From Coriobacteriales bacterium (GTDB taxonomy: Bacteria; Actinomycetota; Coriobacteriia; Coriobacteriales; UBA8131): a stretch of 34,451 nt of DNA. Below the pieces are notes generated by a model. That model ran no database searches. It was not told where the DNA came from and saw only the letters and a program-made list of their open reading frames with translations. Of the stretch, positions 2,813 through 27,196 are shown one piece after another (within the stretch, counting starts at the first letter, position 1; every line of letters begins with the position of its first letter). The stretch is from the NCBI GenBank assembly GCA_031256715.1, contig JAIRQA010000140.1, positions 1 through 34,451 on the forward strand. Direction: 5' to 3'. Both the position numbers and the translations under genes were made by a program.

Positions 2813-3544
2813 GTGACAACTATGATTGGTGGACAAAGAGCACATGCCCGCAGCAACGACGAGATGCGTCCGGTGCGCTTTACGCGCAAGTATCTTAAAG
2901 ATGCTCAGGGCTCATGCCTTGTAGAATTTGGCGACACCCGCGTTTTGTGTGCGGCAACAGTTGATGACGGCGTGGCATCTTGGCTTAAGGGCACGGGTCG
3001 CGGATGGATAACTGCCGAGTATTCAATGCTTCCGGCATCTACCGCAAAGCGTACTCGGCGTGAAACTCATGGGCAAACCGGTCGCACTCAAGAAATTCAG
3101 CGTCTAATTGGTCGTAGTCTGCGCTCGGTGGTTGATCTTAGCGCGTTAGGCGAGTGCACGGTTACCGTAGACTGCGATGTTATTCAAGCAGATGGTGGCA
3201 CACGCACAGCTGCAATCTCTGGCGCTTGGCTTGCTTTGCACGACGCCTTAGCAACATGGCAACGTGCTGGAAAACTTAAGGGTAATCCGATATTCGATCA
3301 GGTAGTTGCAGTAAGTGTTGGCCTTGTGGCTGGTCGTACTTTGCTAGATTTAGATTATCACGAAGACTCGCGGGCAGAGATAGACATGAACTTAGTTCAA
3401 TGTGGATCAGGTGAGTTTGTAGAGTTGCAGGGAACCGGCGAGCAAACTACATTTGACCGTTCGCGCTTAAATACATTATTAGATATTGGCGAGAAGGGAC
3501 TACGCGAGCTTCTTGCCTTGCAGAAAGCAGCTTTGGAGGCCTAA
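2813..3544 (+). CDS. rph: Ribonuclease PH
   Basis: MRPVRFTRKYLKDAQGSCLVEFGDTRVLCAATV...GRGWITAEYSMLP...RTRRE...GRTQEIQRLIGRSLR; GTG start. Confidence 0.95.
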   Translation: MTTMIGGQRAHARSNDEMRPVRFTRKYLKDAQGSCLVEFGDTRVLCAATVDDGVASWLKGTGRGWITAEYSMLPASTAKRTRRETHGQTGRTQEIQRLIGRSLRSVVDLSALGECTVTVDCDVIQADGGTRTAAISGAWLALHDALATWQRAGKLKGNPIFDQVVAVSVGLVAGRTLLDLDYHEDSRAEIDMNLVQCGSGEFVELQGTGEQTTFDRSRLNTLLDIGEKGLRELLALQKAALEA

Positions 3545-3611
3545 GCGTGAAAAATTGGCTAACTTTCATAGCGAATTTGTGCCGCTGCAAAGCGGCGAAA
3601 TGGAGGCAACT

Positions 3612-5153
3612 ATGAATAAAGTGGTGGTGGCAACACGCAATGCTCATAAGTTAAAAGAATTGCAAGCTATCGTTGACGCTATTAGTCCTAATACCTGGCG
3701 CTTGATAACCATGAGCGAAGCTGGCATAGTTGGCGCCGCTAAAGAAGATGGCGACAGCTTTGCTGCTAATGCCCTATTAAAGGCACGCTATGCCCATGAG
3801 GCAACAGGCTACGCTGCCATTGCCGATGATTCTGGACTTGTAGTGGATGCCTTGGGCGGTGCACCAGGTATCTATTCTGCGCGCTATGCAGTATTAAACA
3901 CCGATGACAACTGCTCTAACAAGTGCGATTGCCAAGTTAATGGCAAAAGTGATTCTTTTGCAGACGACAAGAGTGATATTTTTTATGTTGAGAAGAACTC
4001 CAGCCACACAGGCGACAAGAGTGACAACATTTTGTCTAGCAAGGACGCAACGCAGGCAGACGACAAGGCAAATACTAGTAAGCTATTAAAAGAGCTTGCT
4101 AGCCTTAATGACGACAATCGCAATGCTCGTTTCGTCTGCGCTATGGTCTTTATTGCTTCAGATGGTAAAATCGCCGAATCTATTGGTACCATAGAGGGTA
4201 AGATCGCTTGTATGCCTTGTGGCACGAGTGGCTTTGGCTACGATCCAGTGTTTATCCCCACCGAAGATAATCCTAACAGTAAGACTTTAGCTGAGTATTG
4301 CGAACATGAGAAAAACAAGGTTTCGCACCGCTTTCGCGCTATGCAAGGGCTTTGCGAGAAGCTCTTCTCAACAAATACTATTGAGCCTTTAGTTGAAACC
4401 ACCGTGAAGCCTGCTAATGATCAGTCGTCTGTAGAAACAGGCGCGATGCCCGCTGGTGATAGGTCGCCCTCTGCTTCTAAGTTGCCCTATAGGATTGCGG
4501 TCTTTGATTACGATGGAACAGTGATAGATGCCTCGTCTCCGGTGCGCTTGATATTTAGGTTGATAAAAGATCGCATCATTCCCGTACGTGTGGGAACACG
4601 CATTGCCGGCTGGGGGCTGCGTTACAAGATGGGGGCAGAGCTGGATCAGGCGAAGCCAAGGAGACAAATCTTTCGTTCGCTTAGAAAATTTTCTGCTACC
4701 GATGCCAATGCTATCATGCAAAATCTTTATCGCGAGGAGCTTAAGCGCTTTGAGCGTCCAGATGCCATTAGATGTTTACAGGAACTAAAAAAACAGGGTG
4801 TGCGTATAGTTATAGTTTCGGCTTCGTTTGAGCCTATGGTGCGCGAATTTGCCAAAGCAATAGGTGCCGATGGTTGGGTAGCTACAGAAATGGAAATACT
4901 AGATGGTTATTATACGGGTGAAACCGTGCGTGAGCCACCTGAGGGGGAGCAAAAACTCATTCAGTTCACAAATTTTGCTAATGAACGTTATGGCGAGGGT
5001 AATTGGTGCTTAGAGTGGGCTTTTGGCGATCATTTTTCTGATGTTCCCCTCATGCAGACGGCAACTAATCCAATCGCGGTAGACCCGGATAACCGATTGG
5101 AGCGTATTGCCAAAGAGCGTCGCTGGCAGATAGTAAAGTGGCCGCTGGAGTAA
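3612..5153 (+). CDS. rdgB: XTP/dITP diphosphatase (RdgB/HAM1) fused to a C-terminal HAD-superfamily (SerB-like) phosphatase
   Basis: Likely start ATG 3612 preceded by GGAGG. RdgB motifs VVATRNAHKLKEL, IADDSGLVVDALGGAPGIYSARYA, FGYDPVF, SHRFRAM; then HAD motif I FDYDGTVID, motif II VIVSAS, and GDHFSDVPLM. Confidence 0.92.
   Translation: MNKVVVATRNAHKLKELQAIVDAISPNTWRLITMSEAGIVGAAKEDGDSFAANALLKARYAHEATGYAAIADDSGLVVDALGGAPGIYSARYAVLNTDDNCSNKCDCQVNGKSDSFADDKSDIFYVEKNSSHTGDKSDNILSSKDATQADDKANTSKLLKELASLNDDNRNARFVCAMVFIASDGKIAESIGTIEGKIACMPCGTSGFGYDPVFIPTEDNPNSKTLAEYCEHEKNKVSHRFRAMQGLCEKLFSTNTIEPLVETTVKPANDQSSVETGAMPAGDRSPSASKLPYRIAVFDYDGTVIDASSPVRLIFRLIKDRIIPVRVGTRIAGWGLRYKMGAELDQAKPRRQIFRSLRKFSATDANAIMQNLYREELKRFERPDAIRCLQELKKQGVRIVIVSASFEPMVREFAKAIGADGWVATEMEILDGYYTGETVREPPEGEQKLIQFTNFANERYGEGNWCLEWAFGDHFSDVPLMQTATNPIAVDPDNRLERIAKERRWQIVKWPLE
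3891..4070 (+). other. In-frame ~60-aa low-complexity insertion inside the RdgB domain
   Basis: VLNTDDNCSNKCDCQVNGKSDSFADDKSDIFYVEKNSSHTGDKSDNILSSKDATQADDKA interrupts the usual SARYA...NxxKLLxEL continuity. Confidence 0.8.
4392..4469 (+). repeat. 2 x 39-bp (13-aa) tandem repeat in RdgB-HAD linker
   Basis: VETTVKPANDQSS / VETGAMPAGDRSP. Confidence 0.8.
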
Positions 5154-5844: not shown

Positions 5845-8163
5845 ATGGCCATTGATTCAGAAGCTCATGACTTTATAGAGAATTGTGACGATTCGGGAAA
5901 TTCCAACGGTATGGATAATCCGAGAAGTTTGGGCAGTTCAGAAATACCAAGAGATGCGGTTGTTGCACAGCTGTTGGAACAGGCGCAAGAAGCACAAGTT
6001 GGTGGCAGGGGCAGTTTGGCCATCCATTTATATTGTGCTGCTTTTAGGATGTCTTTAGAACAGGGCGGTGCGCCTACATCAGATGCCATTGATGGCTTGC
6101 GTAGCGCTTGGCTTTTGGCTTGTGAGCAAGGCGACAAGCAGTCAGCCGAGAGCATCTTTAGCGATTTTATTCCGTATTGTTCTGTTGAGCAGGCAGAATA
6201 TGCCTTTCTTGACCTACATGACTTGTTAATGTCAAAATTTCGTGAATTTGATGACTCCAGTAAAAATGGTAGCTTAGATTTTCGTAAACATGCGTCAGCT
6301 GTTCTTGTTACCTTTGCGCAATCGCTGGAGCTATTGCGAACAGCCGAGATTGCCCCTGAAGAAAGAATCGACGAGCTTTTGCAAAGTGTACGCGTGTTGG
6401 AGTTAGGCTTAGACGCAATAGAGCTTGGCATTCTTAACCCAATGTCAGGTGTAGGTGCTGTTGCTGCGGTGCCTGTTACTGCTAATGTAAATGCAGAGCC
6501 TGAGATTGGCGAAAGCGCGTCAGCTAGCATCAGTAACGATGTTAAAGAAGATATTTCGATTGGTGACTCATTTGAAAATTTGATGCGTGCAGTTGCTTTT
6601 GGCATGACTGCTACAGTTGTAGGTGACGAATCTACAACATGCCATGCGCCAGTACCAACTAAAAATAACGAGAGCACAAAAACTAGTGTTGGTGATGCTA
6701 ATGCTAACGTCGGCGAAGATGTTGTTGCAAACTCTAGCGCATGCTTAGACGTTAGCCAACATGGCAGTGTCAGGTTTGACTCTAATGCCAGCTTTGGTGC
6801 TGGCCTAGATATCAGATCCGATTTTAACGTTGGTACAGACACAGAAGTTGGCGCTGATTTTGGCGCAGCTAATAGTTATAGCGCTGACGCTAGCCACAGC
6901 ACAAATAGCGGCACTGGTTCTAATGCTAACGTTGACACCAATGACGCTGACATCGATGTTGACACTGACACTAGCTTTAGCACAAGCACCAGTGCCGCTG
7001 CCGCAACTACCAACGCAGCCAGCAACGTTTCAAGTGATAAAAAAAATGCACTTAATAATGAGAAAGACAGCGTGAACACCGGCGCACTATTTTCATCGCG
7101 TAAGTCTGAGTCAGGATCTTCAGCACAGGGAGTGCGTATAGACCTTGGTACGTTGGCGCATAATCTAGCATCACAAAAGAACAATGGCAAGGATGACAAT
7201 AGGTTGCGTTATTTAAGTTTGTCTGGCTTTCAAAACACGCTTCAAGAGATGCGGGAATTCGGTTTTCAGATACCAGGCGATCATCGTTTTGCAGACTTTT
7301 TAGCTGCTGCACAGGAATATCACGGCATTAAAGGCTTGGTGCTTTCGGACACATTTCTTTTTTATGGACCGTCACGCGAAGATACTGCTCTTTTTGCAAT
7401 GGCAACTGCCGGCGAAATTGGTCGCCCTGTTGTGAATATGGATGTAGGTTTAAATGTTAATGGTGGCGGGACAATAAAGGTAACGACACCCATAAAAAAG
7501 ACCATCTTTGGCTCACCACGCCCCACAGATCTTCCAGAGCAATGCACTCTTGTTATTCAGAATATAGATATTTTGCAGGAATTATTTCGTAGGGAAGAAG
7601 AGATGTTGGGACATCCTTACAGTCAATATGGCGATCTTGAGTTTAATACCCGCAGCTTTGGGCAGCCTTTTGGTTCGATGCGCTGTATGCAATCGGAAAT
7701 ATTAAGCTATATAGATGCTTTGCTATCTAACAATGATGTTGTTGTAATTGCTACATCAGAAAGCGGCACCGATATAGACCCTGATTTGTTGGGGGCAGGA
7801 CTTTTAGAAGTACTTAGCCCAATAAGCGAGATTGAGGTAGGTAAACCTACACAACACGAGCGCTTTGATGTTATCGCCACTTTTGCTGCTGAGCATAATT
7901 CACTAAAGGAATTAGACTTTACGGCTTTGTCTAGGCTTACAGAAGATTTGGGGCGCTACGATATTGCGCGTGTTTGCCAAAATGCTGTCGAGAGCGCATA
8001 TCGCGAAACATTAAGAAGTAGGCGACAGCAGCCAGTGAGTATGCAGACTTTTTTAAATGAGTTAAGCTTATTTCTTGACCGTAAGTCTGCTATCTATGAG
8101 CAGGTAGAGGACATGCTTGTTGAAATGTTTAGTCAGGAGCTTCCTGACTCGTTTGTGCAATAG
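5845..8163 (+). CDS. 772-aa protein: N-terminal helical domain, long low-complexity linker, C-terminal degenerate AAA+-like ATPase domain
   Basis: C-terminal order resembles AAA+ (FLFYGPSREDTALFAMATAGEIGRPVVNM ~ degenerate P-loop; TLVIQNIDIL ~ Walker B strand; VVVIATSESGTDIDPDLL; LDFTALSRLTEDLGRYDIARVCQNAVESAYR ~ lid helices). Central D/N/S/T/A-rich segment about aa 210-430. Confidence 0.6.
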   Translation: MAIDSEAHDFIENCDDSGNSNGMDNPRSLGSSEIPRDAVVAQLLEQAQEAQVGGRGSLAIHLYCAAFRMSLEQGGAPTSDAIDGLRSAWLLACEQGDKQSAESIFSDFIPYCSVEQAEYAFLDLHDLLMSKFREFDDSSKNGSLDFRKHASAVLVTFAQSLELLRTAEIAPEERIDELLQSVRVLELGLDAIELGILNPMSGVGAVAAVPVTANVNAEPEIGESASASISNDVKEDISIGDSFENLMRAVAFGMTATVVGDESTTCHAPVPTKNNESTKTSVGDANANVGEDVVANSSACLDVSQHGSVRFDSNASFGAGLDIRSDFNVGTDTEVGADFGAANSYSADASHSTNSGTGSNANVDTNDADIDVDTDTSFSTSTSAAAATTNAASNVSSDKKNALNNEKDSVNTGALFSSRKSESGSSAQGVRIDLGTLAHNLASQKNNGKDDNRLRYLSLSGFQNTLQEMREFGFQIPGDHRFADFLAAAQEYHGIKGLVLSDTFLFYGPSREDTALFAMATAGEIGRPVVNMDVGLNVNGGGTIKVTTPIKKTIFGSPRPTDLPEQCTLVIQNIDILQELFRREEEMLGHPYSQYGDLEFNTRSFGQPFGSMRCMQSEILSYIDALLSNNDVVVIATSESGTDIDPDLLGAGLLEVLSPISEIEVGKPTQHERFDVIATFAAEHNSLKELDFTALSRLTEDLGRYDIARVCQNAVESAYRETLRSRRQQPVSMQTFLNELSLFLDRKSAIYEQVEDMLVEMFSQELPDSFVQ

Positions 8164-17231: not shown

Positions 17232-19151
17232 GTGATAGTAAGGATGCTCAAAATGAGCTACAAGAATGAAAACTTATACGATGCAATTATCATTGGTGCA
17301 GGTCCTGCCGGCATGACCGCTGCCTTGTATCTGGCGCGTGCTAGATACCGCGTGCTTGTGATAGAAAAAGAGCGCATTGGCGGACAAATTGCCATTACCG
17401 CAGAGGTGGTAAACTATCCGGGCATCCTTACTATATCAGGTGCCGAGCTTATGCAAACAATGCGAAAGCAGGCACTTGCTTTTGGCGCCGAATTTATAAA
17501 CGCAAAAGCTCTTGCACTGACACTTGATGGCTCTATAAAGGAAGTGCAAACAGATAGCGGAACCTTTCATGCTTTTGGTGTCTTACTGGCAACGGGCGCG
17601 CGTCCACGCAAGTTAGGATTTAAAGGCGAGGATGAATTTCAGGGACATGGGGTTGCTTATTGTGCCACTTGCGATGGTGAATTTTTCACCGGCATGGATG
17701 TTTTTGTTATTGGTGGTGGATATGCGGCAGCAGAAGAGGCTATATTTCTTACTGCCTATGCGCGCAAGGTCATCGTGGTAATGCGTGGCGCAGATTTTTC
17801 ATGCGCCAAGAGTATAGCCGATGCGGTTAAACAGCATGCTAATATAGATATACATTATCATACTGTTATAGAAGAAGTTAGTGGAGACACAGTATTAAGA
17901 AGTGCGCGTTTTCGCAACATCAAGACAGATGAAGTTTGGGAATATGCTCCAAATATGACTAGTAGTGACGCTTGCGACGCTACAAATGGTTTTGATGGCG
18001 ACGATGTATGCGACGCTACAAATGGTATTGATGGCGACGATGTATGCAGTGTTTCTGGTAATTTAGCTAGCGACGATGTTTGCAGTGCTTTAGGTAGCGC
18101 AAACATTGAAAGCTCTAAACCATTAAATGATTCTGCGGTTACGACTTTTGGCGTCTTTGTTTTTGCTGGTTACACGCCAGCGACAGAGCTACTAGAGGGG
18201 CTTGTGAATCTTAACGAACAAGGTTATGTTGTTGTGGATGCCAATCACAAGACATCTGTAGATGGCATTTATGCAGCTGGTGATGTTTGCGCTAAGCGCC
18301 TGCGTCAAGTTGTTACTGCTACAGCAGATGGCGCGATTGCTGCTGGTGAGCTAGAGCACTATGCTCAAACACAGCGTGATTTGTTGGGGATAGTGCCTAA
18401 GTTTACTGAAAAACCGACAGCAGCTGCTTTAGACAGCGCTGCTAAGGCGAGCGATAAGGCTGCCGATGACAAGTTCTTCTCGACAGAAATAAGAAGCCAG
18501 CTGGACACGATTTTTTCGCGGATGGAATCGTCATTGGAGCTACGGCTGAGTTTAGACGAGAGACAGGTGTCTAAGGAGCTTAAAGCATTTGCAGATGAGC
18601 TCGCTTCTTTAACCAATAAGTTGTTCGTAAGTGTAGATTTTGCCGCCAAAGACGCAAGCGCAGAACAACTTCAGGATCTGCCGGTACTGCGCATATTTAA
18701 GGATGACAGCGACACCGGCTTTGCTTTTCATGGTGTGCCTGGCGGGCATGAGTTTAATTCTTTTGCGTTGGGAATGTACAATATTTCAGGTCCTGGACAA
18801 AAGCTAGATGATGACCTGCGCCAGCGTATTGCGGCGATTTGCGAGCCAATAACGATTCGTGTATTGGTCTCGCTTTCTTGTACGATGTGTCCTGATGCGG
18901 TTGTAGCGGCTGGTCACATTGCCGCTCTTAATCCTTTGGTGCGCACAGAGATTTATGACATAGCGCATTTTAGCGCGCTAAGAGAGCAATATCAGGTGAT
19001 GAGCGTTCCATGCATTGTTGTTTTAAGACAGAATTTAACTGCTTGTGCTGGTGCTGTTATAGATACAGAGGGCGCCAATACTAATGAGAGCATTAGCTTT
19101 GGCAGACGCGATATAAGTCAGCTGCTCGATTTGCTTGAGGCACAGGCATAG
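17232..19151 (+). CDS. Thioredoxin reductase-like FAD enzyme fused to a C-terminal AhpF-N-terminal-like double thioredoxin-fold domain
   Basis: GAGPAGMTAALYLARA, VAYCATCDGEFF redox Cys pair, VFVIGGGYAAAEEA, GIYAAGDVC; C-terminal half has IRVLVSLSCTMCPDAVVAAGHIAALNP as in the AhpF N-terminal domain. Confidence 0.9.
   Translation: MIVRMLKMSYKNENLYDAIIIGAGPAGMTAALYLARARYRVLVIEKERIGGQIAITAEVVNYPGILTISGAELMQTMRKQALAFGAEFINAKALALTLDGSIKEVQTDSGTFHAFGVLLATGARPRKLGFKGEDEFQGHGVAYCATCDGEFFTGMDVFVIGGGYAAAEEAIFLTAYARKVIVVMRGADFSCAKSIADAVKQHANIDIHYHTVIEEVSGDTVLRSARFRNIKTDEVWEYAPNMTSSDACDATNGFDGDDVCDATNGIDGDDVCSVSGNLASDDVCSALGSANIESSKPLNDSAVTTFGVFVFAGYTPATELLEGLVNLNEQGYVVVDANHKTSVDGIYAAGDVCAKRLRQVVTATADGAIAAGELEHYAQTQRDLLGIVPKFTEKPTAAALDSAAKASDKAADDKFFSTEIRSQLDTIFSRMESSLELRLSLDERQVSKELKAFADELASLTNKLFVSVDFAAKDASAEQLQDLPVLRIFKDDSDTGFAFHGVPGGHEFNSFALGMYNISGPGQKLDDDLRQRIAAICEPITIRVLVSLSCTMCPDAVVAAGHIAALNPLVRTEIYDIAHFSALREQYQVMSVPCIVVLRQNLTACAGAVIDTEGANTNESISFGRRDISQLLDLLEAQA
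17973..18098 (+). repeat. 3.5 x 36-bp in-frame tandem repeat (12 aa, CDATNGxDGDDV) in the TrxB domain
   Basis: CDATNGFDGDDV / CDATNGIDGDDV / CSVSGNLASDDV / CSALGS. Confidence 0.95.
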
Positions 19152-19282: not shown

Positions 19283-20635
19283 CTACATTGCCTTTGTGAT
19301 AGCACGCAGCTGCTCTAATGCATATTGCCATTCTATGCGCTCCTGTTCAAGTCGCAATGCTTTGTCGCCAGATAACAATTTGGCTAGGGTTTTCTTTTCG
19401 TCTGCGCTCAGATGCGTAAGTTCGCTTCGGTTGGGGCTTGGCTCATAAACACAGAGGTCGCGATGTATATCAAGTGTTGCACTGTCCATCATTAATGATT
19501 TTGCGTGCGAGAAGTGATGCCGCAATCTATTTAGGATAGCAAATCCATTGCTATCTAAGTCTCCCCAATACCATAATGCTACACTATTTAGCCAAGAAAC
19601 TTCAGACAAGATGCTTACACCATAACCGCTGCCAAAAATAGCGATGGTGCCTAAGATCGGCGGAAGTGCCAAAAAACTAACAAGATTTTCGCAAACTAAG
19701 ACGGCGGCAGGGCGTTGCGCATAGCTATTTAGTTCTTGCGCTGGTACAGAAACGTCGCTAAAGCCTTCTGGCGCCAAGGTAATATCTAGAAATCTGACCC
19801 TAATTAGGTGCGGCTGTTGCATAAAGTCTGGCTTTGCCTTACCTGTTAATGCGCAGTACACAGGCTCGATCATTTTTTGGTGTGCCTCAAACCATTTGCT
19901 ATCTATACCGCGAATAGGCAACTGGCGCACATAACATTTTTGGTTCTGATTGTTCACCAGCCAATCAATAACAGCTATAAACGTGGTCCAGTTCGCATCA
20001 TCTAGACTGCATAGATTACTTATCTGTTTATGTAGCGTCAAGCTAAGCGCTGCCATGTCGCGCTTAAGGCAGTGCGGGAACCACTGCTTAAGGCAAAGGC
20101 AGGCAAGCTCGTTAACTCTTTGTAAGACACGATGCCATTCCTGCTCTCTTTGAGCAAACGCAGAGATTATTTCTGGATTAAGCAATAATAGTCGCTCGGG
20201 AACTTCCTGATGTCCAACGCTTGCCCATTCTCGCTTTACCCAATGTATTTGCATCTCTTCCTTGTAGAACTTGTAGGCCTTACTGTCCTTGCGGGCACTA
20301 CAGGTACTGTAGCCTTTGCAATCTAGATTGCGCCAAGATTGCACCCAAAGGCGTGCGGCTTGCTGATCTTTTAGAACCTGTTGTTCTGTTGGCGGGTGAA
20401 GTGGCAAAGAAAAAGAATGTTTACTTGTAGGTTTCAAGGCAGCCGCGGCTGATTCAGACTTAACCCCAAACGCAGCTTCATGTACGCGCTCTGAAACAAC
20501 CCCAAGCTTAACCCCAAACGCAGCAATTGCCAAAGAAAACTGCTCTGTCGCCCAATCTTTATAATGCCGCTCATAATGTCTTAAAGCTTTGGCTCGCGCC
20601 TGAGAAACAGTAATCATCACATCTTTTTTACTCAT
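19283..20635 (-). CDS. jetD: Wadjet protein JetD (DUF3322/DUF2220, Toprim nuclease)
   Basis: C-terminal AAVLVCENLVSFLALPP...IAIFGSGYGVSIL...WYWGDLDSNGFAILNRLRHHF matches the JetD Toprim layout (E...DxD); last gene of the jetABCD operon. Confidence 0.9.
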   Translation of the reverse strand: MSKKDVMITVSQARAKALRHYERHYKDWATEQFSLAIAAFGVKLGVVSERVHEAAFGVKSESAAAALKPTSKHSFSLPLHPPTEQQVLKDQQAARLWVQSWRNLDCKGYSTCSARKDSKAYKFYKEEMQIHWVKREWASVGHQEVPERLLLLNPEIISAFAQREQEWHRVLQRVNELACLCLKQWFPHCLKRDMAALSLTLHKQISNLCSLDDANWTTFIAVIDWLVNNQNQKCYVRQLPIRGIDSKWFEAHQKMIEPVYCALTGKAKPDFMQQPHLIRVRFLDITLAPEGFSDVSVPAQELNSYAQRPAAVLVCENLVSFLALPPILGTIAIFGSGYGVSILSEVSWLNSVALWYWGDLDSNGFAILNRLRHHFSHAKSLMMDSATLDIHRDLCVYEPSPNRSELTHLSADEKKTLAKLLSGDKALRLEQERIEWQYALEQLRAITKAM

Positions 20636-20641
20636 CTATAT

Positions 20642-23600
20642 TTATAGCTCTGTAACTTCTGTTTTGGCAGCATCTGCAGCTTCTTTTTGGGCAAAGTCAC
20701 CAAAATCTATCATTTGTATTCGTGAATATCTAGAATCCGCGCAGCTTATAGAAGCGATAGCTCCAATATGTCGCTCTAACGTTTGCAACAGCTTCAGCGG
20801 TGTTGCCAAGACCATATGAAAGCCAAAGACCTTAAAGATATCCATAGCCATTGCTGCAAATTGATGATCTGCTTTATCAAAAGCTTCGTCTAAAACTACT
20901 GTGCCATAAGAGGGAATTGGTTGATCTTCATCTGCCAGCTGGTAGCGCAATGCGGCAGCCAAACAAAATATCACCAACTTCTGTTTTTGTCCGCCAGAAA
21001 GACCGGCATCGGATTGGTAAACGCCTTGCACATTGCCATTGTTATCTATTTCCTTGGCGGTAAAGCAAACGTGCAGTCGTGTGTCCAGACATTCGCTCTT
21101 CCATTTTTTGTCGGCAGTTTCATCGGAACGAAAGCGCCTAATAATGCTATCTGTGCGCAGGTATCTGGCCTCGGCTCCAGCAAGGTCGGTTTCGCTCCAA
21201 ACGTCTTTTGTAATGGCTTGCAATTCGTTTAAAAAATCAGTGACTTGTTTACTGCGGTTGTCTTTAACATCAATTTGCAGATGAATGCCAGGACTATATT
21301 CAGAAAGCTTTAAAGATTTGTTAACCATAACTAACTTATCTTTGACCTCTCTAAACGCCGCTCGTACAGTCGTGGCCAAAACGGTAATCTGATCTTGGCT
21401 AAAGTCATGAAGCACTTGCATAAATCGCTTTTCGTATTCCGGCAAACCGTTGGCCTTAATGCGTTTGTAAATTCCCAGATAGGATTGCAAATCGCCAAAC
21501 TCAGAACTAAGATTGGTGGCGGCAAGAGGCCACTTTTGCTTAAACTTATCTATCGTGCGCTCGCATTCCAGGCGGTTTTTTTGCAGGCGCTCTGCCACTA
21601 TACGGCTCTGCTCTTGCAAAAGATTGCGCACTTCTCTGGCTGTTCTACGAATTGAATCTGCGCTTTTATCATATTGGCTGTTTTGCTGTTTAAATTTTTT
21701 GTTAAGAAGGTCGCGTTCCTTCTCACCCACAGTTATTTTGGTAGCAGCACTTGAGGTAATGTCATCAATGTCACTTTGAATTGACGCTAACTGTTTGGCA
21801 AGCATGCCTTCGTCTATTCTTGCTTTTTCTACTTCGGCATCGGCAGCGTCTTTTCTGCGCTGTGCTTCATCGCGCATGGTTTCGGCGTTGCGCAGTTTGC
21901 CATCGCAACTCTTAAGCAGATTATAATGTTTCTGGCTGCTTTCCAAATCGGTTTTTGCCATTAGCTCGTCGTAGTTACTCCATGGCACAGATTGCAACAT
22001 ATTGCTTAGTCTGAGCAAGTTTTTAGCAATGGAGGTTTCATCTTCTGTAGCCGACGCTATTGCCTCTGCACTTGCCAGCTCTTGTTTCAGGCGTTCTTCA
22101 ACTTGGGCTAGGATATCGATCTTCTCGTCATTGGCATCGCCTAATACCCAACGACTGCGGTCATCAATCATAAAGCGGTCGTCTTTTACATAGTGGTTGC
22201 GCTTCTTTATCTGACCAGCTAACGTTAGTGCCATTTCTTTGTCTTGCATGTCTTGTGCTTGATTAACGCAAGTATAGTTAAAGCGTTTTCGTAAATCTTG
22301 GTTAAGCCAGTTACTAAACTCTATATGGTGCTTGTGTTGGCGAACGTTTAGCTTTTTTACTAAGGAATCGTTTGGTGTAGAGCGCATTGTCACTTCTACC
22401 TCGGCAGGAATAGCTTGGTATTCTAAGCGTATGCCAAGATGGTGTTTTTCTAGATATTCTGAAACCTTAGTTACGTGACGTTGAGATACAAGAAGTGTTT
22501 TCGCATAGTTACCCAAGAGTCTCTCTATTGCGCCGCGCCATTTTACCTCTTCCGGTTTAACATTAATCATCTCACCAATAAAAGGAAATTCATCGGGCAT
22601 GATGCCAACATGCGTCGCAAGATCAAGGCGAATTTGAGCAAGCTTCGCGGGAATGTTGGTGCGCGAACTTCGCAAATGCCTAAGTTCTGTGCGCAATTCA
22701 GTTAATTGTGCTTTAAGCTCGCTCACTTGTCCAAAAGTTGCGTAGCGGCTATCCTTTTCGTTAACCTGTTTAGCAGCAGCAACATCGGCTTTAGCTTTAA
22801 GGTCTAGGAGCATGTTTTGCCAATCACTCTGAGTCACGGGCAGATCTATTAACATTTTTACAGACGCCAATTCGTTGGCAAGCGATTTACGGCTATCTAG
22901 TACGTTGTTATAACGCAGCTGGCAGTTATCGCAGGCAAGTCTGGCATCATCAAATGCTTTGCCGCCAGCGCTATCCATGGCAGCTTGCGCCTGAGTTAGT
23001 GCCGCTCTTGCTTGTTCTTGTTCATGAGAAGCTGTGTAAACTGCCTCGGAACATATATTTATCTTGCGCTTGACATCTAGTTGTTTTGCCATAAGATGCT
23101 CAAGCACTAATTGGTCGCTATGGCTATCTAGTGCCACTTGAAGTTGCTCTAGTTCTGTTTGCTCTAACTGTGACTTATGGTAGCGCGAGTCTAGCTCTAA
23201 TAAAGGCTCAAGGTGTTGCATTTGCTGGCGTTGTTCGACTACTCCGGCGTATGCCTGATTTAATGCCGTAAAGCGCTCCACTGCGTCATCGGCTTGTTTA
23301 AAGGTGATAGGGTCGTCAAGCATAAATCTTCTAAAGAGATCATCTAAAGAACCAAAATTTTTTGCTGCTTGCGTTTTGTGCAGTAATACCAGTGTTTTAG
23401 CACCGGCTGTACTCGCTGCTATTTCTGCTCCCGTATTGCTACCTATGCCCATGTCACGGCAAAATTTTTGTGCAAAGCTTGAATGCTCGCGCCAGGCATG
23501 TCCATTACTGCTTTTTTGTTCGCGATTAAATTTGGCAATATCTATGCCATTTATCGCATAAGGCTCGAACTCTTTAAGTAAGTGTTCGCCGCGAACTGTA

Positions 23601-24151
23601 GCGTAGAGCACACTTAATCCATCTGGAGAATTACTGCCAGCCTTAAGGTTAAAAAGTGCAATCAGGTTTATAGCGGCACTGCTCAGTGTTTGTTGCAACT
23701 GTGTCTTGGCATCTAGGCATTGGCTTTCGTAGCGCAATAAAATTCCGCTCCAGGTTGCCACATTTGGACGCAAATAAGTATTGGCAATCTCGCCTGTATC
23801 ATCGGTTTCATGTCGCCAAGCACCGCGAACGTAGCTGCAGATAGTTCTATCGGCAGCCGCATTACTGGCGCCAAGTGCCGCTGCGTTAAGTTTACGATTT
23901 ATTGGTGGCGTTAGTACAGTAGTAATGGCATCTAATAGCGTAGACTTACCTGATCCAGATGGTCCGGTAATCAAAAGCCCGCGCCTACTAACGGGCAGTG
24001 TCTGATAGCCATTAAATGTTCCCCAGTTGGCGGTCTCTATGCGTGCAAGACGCCACTGTCCGGGGTGTAAGCTAGCAGGATCATTAAGGTATTCTAAGTC
24101 ATTAAATAAAGCTTCCTGAGCGCTCAGCATTTTAGTATTCGTCACTTTCAT
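20642..24151 (-). CDS. jetC: Wadjet protein JetC (SMC/MukB-like ATPase)
   Basis: Walker A LLITGPSGSGKSTLLDAITTVLTP, long coiled-coil region, signature LSGGQKQKLVIFCLAAALRYQL, Walker B GTVVLDEAFDKAD; start probably 24151 or 24130 (ORF track extends to 24193). Confidence 0.93.
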   Translation of the reverse strand: MKVTNTKMLSAQEALFNDLEYLNDPASLHPGQWRLARIETANWGTFNGYQTLPVSRRGLLITGPSGSGKSTLLDAITTVLTPPINRKLNAAALGASNAAADRTICSYVRGAWRHETDDTGEIANTYLRPNVATWSGILLRYESQCLDAKTQLQQTLSSAAINLIALFNLKAGSNSPDGLSVLYATVRGEHLLKEFEPYAINGIDIAKFNREQKSSNGHAWREHSSFAQKFCRDMGIGSNTGAEIAASTAGAKTLVLLHKTQAAKNFGSLDDLFRRFMLDDPITFKQADDAVERFTALNQAYAGVVEQRQQMQHLEPLLELDSRYHKSQLEQTELEQLQVALDSHSDQLVLEHLMAKQLDVKRKINICSEAVYTASHEQEQARAALTQAQAAMDSAGGKAFDDARLACDNCQLRYNNVLDSRKSLANELASVKMLIDLPVTQSDWQNMLLDLKAKADVAAAKQVNEKDSRYATFGQVSELKAQLTELRTELRHLRSSRTNIPAKLAQIRLDLATHVGIMPDEFPFIGEMINVKPEEVKWRGAIERLLGNYAKTLLVSQRHVTKVSEYLEKHHLGIRLEYQAIPAEVEVTMRSTPNDSLVKKLNVRQHKHHIEFSNWLNQDLRKRFNYTCVNQAQDMQDKEMALTLAGQIKKRNHYVKDDRFMIDDRSRWVLGDANDEKIDILAQVEERLKQELASAEAIASATEDETSIAKNLLRLSNMLQSVPWSNYDELMAKTDLESSQKHYNLLKSCDGKLRNAETMRDEAQRRKDAADAEVEKARIDEGMLAKQLASIQSDIDDITSSAATKITVGEKERDLLNKKFKQQNSQYDKSADSIRRTAREVRNLLQEQSRIVAERLQKNRLECERTIDKFKQKWPLAATNLSSEFGDLQSYLGIYKRIKANGLPEYEKRFMQVLHDFSQDQITVLATTVRAAFREVKDKLVMVNKSLKLSEYSPGIHLQIDVKDNRSKQVTDFLNELQAITKDVWSETDLAGAEARYLRTDSIIRRFRSDETADKKWKSECLDTRLHVCFTAKEIDNNGNVQGVYQSDAGLSGGQKQKLVIFCLAAALRYQLADEDQPIPSYGTVVLDEAFDKADHQFAAMAMDIFKVFGFHMVLATPLKLLQTLERHIGAIASISCADSRYSRIQMIDFGDFAQKEAADAAKTEVTEL

Positions 24152-25034
24152 GAAGTTGTTCCTCGTTAAGGTCAGTTTGGTCGGTCTCTTCAAATTCAGC
24201 TAATAAAGAAAAGTCCTCTGTCCTTGTTGTTAAAGCGCTTTTGCCTGTAAGTGCAGACTGAATTACGCCTTCAATCGCTTTTACTTCCTCAACACCAAAA
24301 ATTAACTTTAATACTGGCGATATTTCGCAACGCTCTTCTGTCTCTGTCGCCTGTAGCAAGCCTGCCTTAACCAGACGGCTCCATGAAGTTTCAACTCGTT
24401 TTTTAAAAGCTGATTCGTCCATTTTTGTAACTGGTCGGTAATGTGAAAGCTGTCTAGTTAAATCTTCTCTGCCAACGAAAACCCGCTCGCTATTGTCTAA
24501 TAATAGTTCTTTGCGCAAAGTTAACACCATAATAGTATCAACTAATGACAAGCGTTGACTTTTTACGGTTTTGGGAACTCGTCCATCTTCGGCCTCGGCA
24601 TTTCTTACAAACGCAATGCCTGAATCACTGTCTAAAATCAGATCTAGAAATAAGTCGGCAAGACGCGACTGAATAGCTTCTTGGTTGTTTTGTAAAGCCT
24701 GCCAAAGTTCCTTCTTCTCGGCAGTTAACATAGGTCCACGAATCAGAGCGACCAAAGCTCTGCGGGCATCAAAAGGAAGTGTGCCTGTGTCTGCTGGCCA
24801 GTAACGTTCGCTTGTATCTGGCTGCCACTGTTTGCCTGCAAAAGAGTCAGCAGGAAAATCTACAGAAGAGCCCGCCGAATGGCTCGCCAGTGATTGTGTA
24901 GAAGAGCCCGCCGAAGACTGCGCCGAAAAACTCGCAGAAGAGCCCGCCGAATGACTCGCCAAAGATTCAAAGTTGGCGGGATCTGAGTTCTTCTTGGCAT
25001 TATTATTAAAAGTTTTAAAGTCGTAGTTGTTCAT
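24132..25034 (-). CDS. jetB: Wadjet protein JetB (DUF4194, kleisin-associated/MukE-like)
   Basis: RRALVALIRGPMLTAEKKELWQALQNNQEAIQSRLADLFLDLILD...VPKTVKSQRLSLVDTIMVLTLRKELL; between jetA (4-nt ATGA overlap) and jetC. Confidence 0.88.
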   Translation of the reverse strand: MNNYDFKTFNNNAKKNSDPANFESLASHSAGSSASFSAQSSAGSSTQSLASHSAGSSVDFPADSFAGKQWQPDTSERYWPADTGTLPFDARRALVALIRGPMLTAEKKELWQALQNNQEAIQSRLADLFLDLILDSDSGIAFVRNAEAEDGRVPKTVKSQRLSLVDTIMVLTLRKELLLDNSERVFVGREDLTRQLSHYRPVTKMDESAFKKRVETSWSRLVKAGLLQATETEERCEISPVLKLIFGVEEVKAIEGVIQSALTGKSALTTRTEDFSLLAEFEETDQTDLNEEQLHESDEY

Positions 25035-26632
25035 AGTTTAACTTTCCGATAAAATTCCCACTTTTCTACATGGGCAAACCTATCGTCTCCTTGTTTAGTT
25101 TGCCAGCGCACAAGCTCGGTCTGTTCTTTGCTTCTGCCTTGTTCTACAGCTAAAACCAAAAGTCCAACTACACTGGCGACACCTTGACTCGCGCCAAAGC
25201 GCTCAAGCACATCGGCAACCGAAACGCTGGGAATGAAGCATTTTGCATTATTCGCAACCTCACGCATGGCTTCTGCCTTTGGCGCCGCCGCCTCTCGCGC
25301 AGCTTCTGCCACCCGTCTAGCTTCTGCCTTTGGCGCCGCCGCCTCTCGCGCAGCTTCTGCCTCCCGAACAGCCGCCGCAAGCGCCTTGTTTACGTTTTCA
25401 ACCAGTTCGCTAAAGTCGATCTCTGTCTCGCGCGCTAACTCACGCAGTTCGGCTATCGAGAGCACATTGGTTTGCGCCACGTCCATTTCTTGTATGGGAG
25501 CAGCACGCTGTTCGCTGGGGTTATCCAGTTTCCAGCGCGAAAGCGGCTGAAGCGATATGCCTGTTAGGTAAAGGGGCTCACCTAAGGCTTTAATGTCGGG
25601 CAGGCTTTCTATTAAGCTGTGTGCCTTAACAAGCGTTTTGTCTATGTGTTGGCGTAAAATGCGATCTTGCTGATACTCCTGGCTTTGCACGAAGCGGCGC
25701 AGCGCGCGAGCAAATGAGGTCATAACCGTGTTTACTTCTTGGCTAGAGATTGCAAAGTTGCGAATTAAACCTCTAAGGAAGCGGCGATCATCTGCGCTTA
25801 ACTCTTCGGCAAAGTCGCGATCTAGAATGGCATCGATATTATCTTGAACCATTTCTGTTAAGGCATTATCTCTAAGCAAAGAATAAAAGCCGCGAAAGGA
25901 GCGACCGGCAACAGATTGGGATATTTCGTCTACGCCATTAAAGATGTTCTCTAAGATATCTTGGTGTCCGTCTTCGTAGTTAATTATTCTGGCGTGAAGC
26001 TCCTTGTTTATAGCCTCGAAGTCGTCGCGCACACGCACGAAGTCATCGGGGATTCCCTGAGAGAGGTTTAAAATGTCGCTAAGTCGCTCAGATGCTTGAT
26101 CGCTCTCTAAAATCTCTAACTTGCCATTGTCTAGCAAGGCCAGTTGTTCATCAATTTTTCTACGTTCTTCCAGTAGGGCAGCGCGGCGATGCTCTTCATT
26201 GTAGCTTGTAGCCAAGGCAAGGCTGGCAACTTGCTCGATAATGGTGTTTAAACGCGATTGAGTTGCATTTCTGTGCGGCTGCAAAAGGCGTTTGGCAAAG
26301 CTGATGGCGCTAAGCGCTCCACCAGAAAGTTCATAGGTCTCCTGCCTGGTTTGGGCAACAGGCCGTCTTACAAGGTAGCCATCTGCTCGCCAGACATCAC
26401 AATAAGCCTGTGCCGAGCGATTAAATTCTAAGTTGGTTAAAAATCGTAATTCTTCAAGGTCTGCCTCAACCAGACTTACCAGCTCTGCCACAGGTAACCT
26501 TCTGGGGTTACCTCCCAGATGAGTATCAAGTATAGCAATGATTGCCGGAGCATTTTTTGCACGCAAAAGTTTCCAAGCCACTTGGTCGCCTTGCAGGCGT
26601 AATAGCTCATGGGTCATCGAGACAACTGACAT
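25031..26632 (-). CDS. jetA: Wadjet protein JetA (DUF3375, MukF-like kleisin)
   Basis: HELLRLQGDQVAWKLLRAKNAPAIIAILDTHLGGNPRRLPVAELVSLVEADLEELR...WRADGYLVRRP...ETYELSGGALSAISF typical of DUF3375; first gene of the operon. Confidence 0.9.
   Translation of the reverse strand: MSVVSMTHELLRLQGDQVAWKLLRAKNAPAIIAILDTHLGGNPRRLPVAELVSLVEADLEELRFLTNLEFNRSAQAYCDVWRADGYLVRRPVAQTRQETYELSGGALSAISFAKRLLQPHRNATQSRLNTIIEQVASLALATSYNEEHRRAALLEERRKIDEQLALLDNGKLEILESDQASERLSDILNLSQGIPDDFVRVRDDFEAINKELHARIINYEDGHQDILENIFNGVDEISQSVAGRSFRGFYSLLRDNALTEMVQDNIDAILDRDFAEELSADDRRFLRGLIRNFAISSQEVNTVMTSFARALRRFVQSQEYQQDRILRQHIDKTLVKAHSLIESLPDIKALGEPLYLTGISLQPLSRWKLDNPSEQRAAPIQEMDVAQTNVLSIAELRELARETEIDFSELVENVNKALAAAVREAEAAREAAAPKAEARRVAEAAREAAAPKAEAMREVANNAKCFIPSVSVADVLERFGASQGVASVVGLLVLAVEQGRSKEQTELVRWQTKQGDDRFAHVEKWEFYRKVKL
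25269..25370 (-). repeat. 2 x 51-bp in-frame tandem repeat in jetA (AREAAAPKAEA...)
   Basis: Two near-identical 51-bp units at 25269 and 25320 encoding REAEAAREAAAPKAEARRVAEAAREAAAPKAEAM. Confidence 0.95.
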
Positions 26633-27023: not shown

Positions 27024-27196
27024 CTTAAGGGCAACAGCTTATATGATGCGTCACAGCTTGATGAGTACGTCTTAGACAAGGTGTGTTGCTGCTTGATGAG
27101 TACGGCTTAGACAAGGTGTGTTGCTGCCTAAGGACAACGGCTTAGACAAGGTGTGCTGCTGCTTGAGGAGAACGGCATAGAGCTAGCGGCTTAGAG
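27024..27196. repeat. About 4-5 degenerate 35-bp tandem repeats upstream of the efflux operon
   Basis: CTTGATGAGTACGTCTTAGACAAGGTGTGTTGCTG units at 27057, 27092, 27127 (diverged), 27162 (more diverged), with a partial degenerate unit at 27024. Confidence 0.9.

Follow-up and report, generated by a model that had tools for sequence, protein, structure and literature searches.

The question raised by this locus is whether four closely packed genes at 19283–26632 of the window (the whole analysed stretch of 34,451 nucleotides, contig JAIRQA010000140.1 of a Coriobacteriales bacterium) constitute a complete type I Wadjet (jetABCD) operon, as proposed in the original prediction, and whether its components are intact. 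ORFs for all four genes are present on the minus strand in the order jetA-jetB-jetC-jetD, as listed in Table 1. Profile searches with PADLOC bore out the proposed identity: each product strongly matches its own type I profile, the best matches being JetA1, JetB1, JetC1 and JetD1 (4 of 4 genes), and chance matching is excluded because the E-values reach down to 0. JetC additionally matches the Pfam families AAA_29 (4.5e-22) and SbcC_Walker_B (5.5e-24). Assignment to type II or III Wadjet was considered and rejected, since the type I profiles dominate and the best type II/III scores are marginal (JetC2 3e-4, JetD3 2.9e-6). Profile searches with DUF3375 or SbcC_Walker_B found no second jet copy in this genome, a MAG that is 78% complete. 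We are highly confident that the operon is a chromosomal member of an already known system, type I Wadjet (JetABCD/MksFEBG).

Table 1. Genes of the jet operon and the tandem repeats within them (window coordinates).
Feature	Position	Strand	Description	Evidence
jetA	25031..26632	-	kleisin subunit, DUF3375, 533 aa	Pfam PF11855 8.9e-116; PADLOC JetA1 1.5e-157
jetB	24132..25034	-	KITE subunit, DUF4194, 300 aa	Pfam PF13835 1.4e-36; PADLOC JetB1 1.5e-65
jetC	20642..24151	-	SMC-like ATPase, ~1169 aa from preferred ATG	PADLOC JetC1 E=0, 1096 bits
jetD	19283..20635	-	Toprim nuclease, DUF3322 + JetD_C, 450 aa	Pfam PF09983 1.8e-46, PF11795 7.2e-31; PADLOC JetD1 2.7e-108
jetA tandem repeat	25269..25366	-	in frame, 51 bp, 1.9 copies	TRF
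jetB tandem repeat	24863..24963	-	in frame, 36 bp, 2.8 copies	TRF

The spacing of the genes is as originally described: jetA and jetB overlap by 4 bp in an ATGA at 25031–25034, and jetC and jetD are 6 bp apart. Each reading frame is open from end to end, with no internal stop in jetA, jetB, jetC or jetD. Three starts were considered for jetC. The longest ORF, as called mechanically, begins with a TTG at 24193 and would overlap jetB by 62 bp; the ATG at 24151 is preceded nine bases upstream by GAGG and overlaps jetB by 20 bp; and the ATG at 24130 is located immediately beyond the stop codon of jetB. The ATG at 24151 is favoured over the TTG because of the upstream GAGG and the smaller overlap, and is probably the start, with the ATG at 24130 also possible. 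The conserved part of JetC lies downstream of all three candidates (in the longest form, the PADLOC match begins at residue 39). A scan for promoters and terminators gave numbers not above the expectation from shuffled sequence (15 versus 11.6 and 8 versus 10.3).

The motifs of JetC and JetD were assessed by aligning each protein with homologues that ranged from members of the same family and order to distant phyla; across 17–21 homologues, the catalytic columns show little or no variation. The ATPase motifs predicted for JetC are intact, namely Walker A (TGPSGSGKST), the LSGGQ-type signature (GLSGGQ) and Walker B (VVLDEAF), and most of the protein can be aligned to solved structures of JetC (8as8 and others, 9e-65). 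The predicted Toprim E...DxD residues of JetD are likewise present, as E316 in the sequence ENL and D359 and D361 in WYWGDLDSNG, and a conserved ExE pair (E430/E432) is found in RLEQERI. E316, D359/D361 and E430/E432 are invariant across 21 aligned JetD proteins.

In sequence searches the best match of JetD is MksG (8b7f, 1.7e-40), and the JetD proteins of P. aeruginosa and E. coli (7til, 8q72) are also matched. Mutational work on MksG from C. glutamicum has shown that cleavage requires E236 and D279; Y258 and E349/E351 are further candidates for a role in catalysis (PMC10123090). By our own mapping from the sequence alignment, E236, D279, Y258 and E349/E351 of MksG correspond to E316, D359, Y338 and E430/E432 of JetD. 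The AlphaFold2 model of JetD has a mean pLDDT of 89, and a Foldseek comparison with the PDB gave E-values below 0.001 only for MksG 8b7f (3.3e-25) and two JetD chains of 7til. The overall TM-scores are modest, at 0.37–0.48 by query length, and the rmsd is large, which fits the two-domain flexibility reported for JetD (PMC10586767).

The operon lies between redox genes and an efflux operon, with ahpC and an ahpF/trxB-like gene on one side and macA/macB on the other, and the expectation that no mobile element would be recognisable here held up, transposase and integrase families being unmatched among the window genes scanned. Searches of the window for tRNAs and Rfam RNA families were negative. 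Foreign insertion was considered on grounds of composition and rejected, since the GC content of 44–47% across the operon is the same as in the flanks and there is no mark of recent arrival. Membership of a defence island was also rejected: other ORFs of the window, compared with PADLOC, gave only a weak AbiEii-like match (3e-5) at 15–470, which is 19 kb away. This small ORF has a similarly weak Pfam match to the DUF6036/AbiEii nucleotidyltransferase toxins (4.9e-6). Elsewhere in the window, a gene at 3486–5153, which immediately follows one for RNase PH, encodes a Ham1-type NTP pyrophosphatase fused to a HAD-family hydrolase, and 5845–8163 is a 772-aa ORF with no Pfam or PADLOC match. No relaxase (PF03432) was found in the same assembly, which is compatible with few plasmids, a weak indication since the MAG is 78% complete.

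The distribution of the operon among relatives is patchy: of 101 genomes examined by protein search, 12 have jetD, the one analysed here among them. A search with the JetD_C profile matched 26 of these genomes, the weaker of which probably represent other Toprim proteins or type II/III-like ones. Wherever the contigs are long enough, the genes keep the order A-B-C-D. Relatives carry jetABCD at other chromosomal sites, for example beside a histidine kinase and metG in genome G001, and the ahpC-ahpF regions sampled from relatives have no jet operon and no macA neighbour. The idea of a shared integration site was rejected, since with jetABCD elsewhere in G001 and no macA beside ahpF in the relatives sampled, no empty site is definable. 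A few plasmids also carry related JetC genes, in 16 of 72,556 records and always at less than 60% identity. This distribution fits a defence operon that moves horizontally or is repeatedly lost, and the present operon adds one natural Wadjet to a family whose genomes, in the material used here, are mostly fragmented.

These results also bear on whether the complex could be a MukBEF/MksBEF-type condensin for chromosome organisation, with JetD secondary. JetB does match the Pfam family MksE (5e-08), and the MksBEF complexes described from other bacteria work on the chromosome (PMC10586767). However, presence in only some of the relatives is unlike that of an essential condensin, JetD is adjacent and intact with its position in the gene order conserved across relatives, and the PADLOC type I profiles are ahead by a wide margin. 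A condensin lacking the nuclease did not emerge as best match, and the jetD gene is present with its catalytic residues. We regard a condensin role as extremely improbable and retain the assignment to type I Wadjet.

JetA and JetB both carry repeat-derived insertions. JetA has approximately 41 extra residues (near 422–462) before its C-terminal winged helix, which contain the 51-bp tandem duplication. This insertion is shorter or absent in eight aligned relatives, and the closest JetA homologue, from G001, aligns only to residues 2–421 and 463–532. In the JetA model, which is weak (mean pLDDT 72), most of the insertion prolongs the helix that runs into the C-terminal winged helix, and a loop modelled with low confidence comes next. 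At the N-terminus of JetB is a Ser/Ala-rich tail, coded by the 36-bp repeat and absent from aligned relatives. According to a review, an IFDR motif at the N-terminus of JetB contacts JetD (PMC10586767); a literal IFDR motif is absent from JetB here, and likewise from 11 related JetB proteins examined.

The insertions are not specific to the operon but part of an excess of in-frame minisatellites that extends across the genome. We counted 61 tandem arrays of period at least 9 in 172 kb of this genome, or about 35 per 100 kb, in a sample comprising the window and L096–L104, which consists of sampled contigs chosen non-randomly. The arrays cover about 4.9 kb (2.8%) of this sample, and a second-order Markov simulation gave 0.2 arrays per sample against the 61 observed. 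Comparison samples gave approximately 13 per 100 kb for the same family and 2 per 100 kb at order level, the samples from relatives being small; 135 kb from seven more distant loci contained 3 arrays, and E. coli K-12 none in 50 kb. The period is divisible by three in 27 of the 28 arrays inside long ORFs, compared with 13 of 33 outside (Fisher p = 1.7e-6), a bias that is partly selection by definition because stop-to-stop ORF calling favours in-frame arrays. A search of the literature for similarly high minisatellite loads returned nothing directly relevant, and this load is odder than the operon itself. Close to the operon, the ahpF/trxB-like gene has a 36-bp in-frame tandem repeat at 17973–18047 (CDATNGIDGDDV), in an insertion at about residues 240–303 that relatives lack, and a 35-bp repeat of 3.6 copies (27056–27181) lies in the gap of about 650 bp between jetA and macA.

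The repeats raise the possibility that this is a former Wadjet system, now non-functional or impaired because their expansion has damaged JetA or JetB. The extra residues and duplication in JetA, the repeat-derived tail of JetB and the low confidence of the JetA model at its insertion all point in this direction, and the operon may be poorly expressed or have lost its function. On the other hand, neither the reading frames nor the catalytic motifs are disrupted, the repeats preserve the frame, and the insertions fall in a linker (JetA) and an N-terminal tail (JetB). In-frame repeats are evidently tolerated in this genome, because the conserved redox gene ahpF of the same window carries them too. 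We consider impairment by the repeats unlikely, and the insertions most probably represent expansions of a linker or tail that the proteins tolerate. It is very unlikely that the jetA and jetB minisatellites vary between cells, altering the lengths of the kleisin linker and JetB tail such that copy number tunes or switches between plasmid tolerance and restriction. The insertions offer a natural test of the length change that the kleisin linker and the JetB tail accept.

Characterised type I systems extrude DNA and then cut it (PMC10586767, PMC12647877, PMC10123090). The analyses above establish the gene content, order and type of the operon, the integrity of its ATPase and nuclease motifs, and the JetD fold, and at the level of sequence we see no departure in the residues needed for the published mechanism. 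By analogy, the operon most likely works in the same way, and the assembly of the complex, loop extrusion and the cleavage of circles only would be expected from characterised relatives. On this mechanism, JetA (kleisin), JetB (KITE) and JetC (SMC ATPase) would by homology assemble into a dimeric, loop-extruding motor. Once a small DNA circle has been fully extruded, the two JetABC motors would collide, and the collision would activate a JetD dimer to make a sequence-independent double-strand cut, with ATP. Plasmids below roughly 50–100 kb would be lost, and the chromosome spared. In Clostridium cellulovorans, deletion of jetABCD raised plasmid transfer by about five orders of magnitude (PMC12287153). 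Poor plasmid uptake would similarly be predicted for the present organism, which matters for making it genetically tractable.

Among known systems, MukBEF/MksBEF condensins share the kleisin-KITE-SMC core, but they lack the JetD nuclease that is present here. The type I JetABCD systems of E. coli GF4-3 and P. aeruginosa PA14 share the architecture and motifs, with JetC matching the structures 8as8 and 8dk2, although JetB here has no literal IFDR motif and their JetD proteins are more distant from the present JetD than MksG is. The type I system MksBEFG of Corynebacterium glutamicum has the same four subunits, and its MksG is the best match of JetD, which has counterparts of all the metal ligands and of the candidate Tyr258. 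It differs in sequence (26% identity over the structural alignment), and the JetA and JetB insertions are extra in the operon described here.
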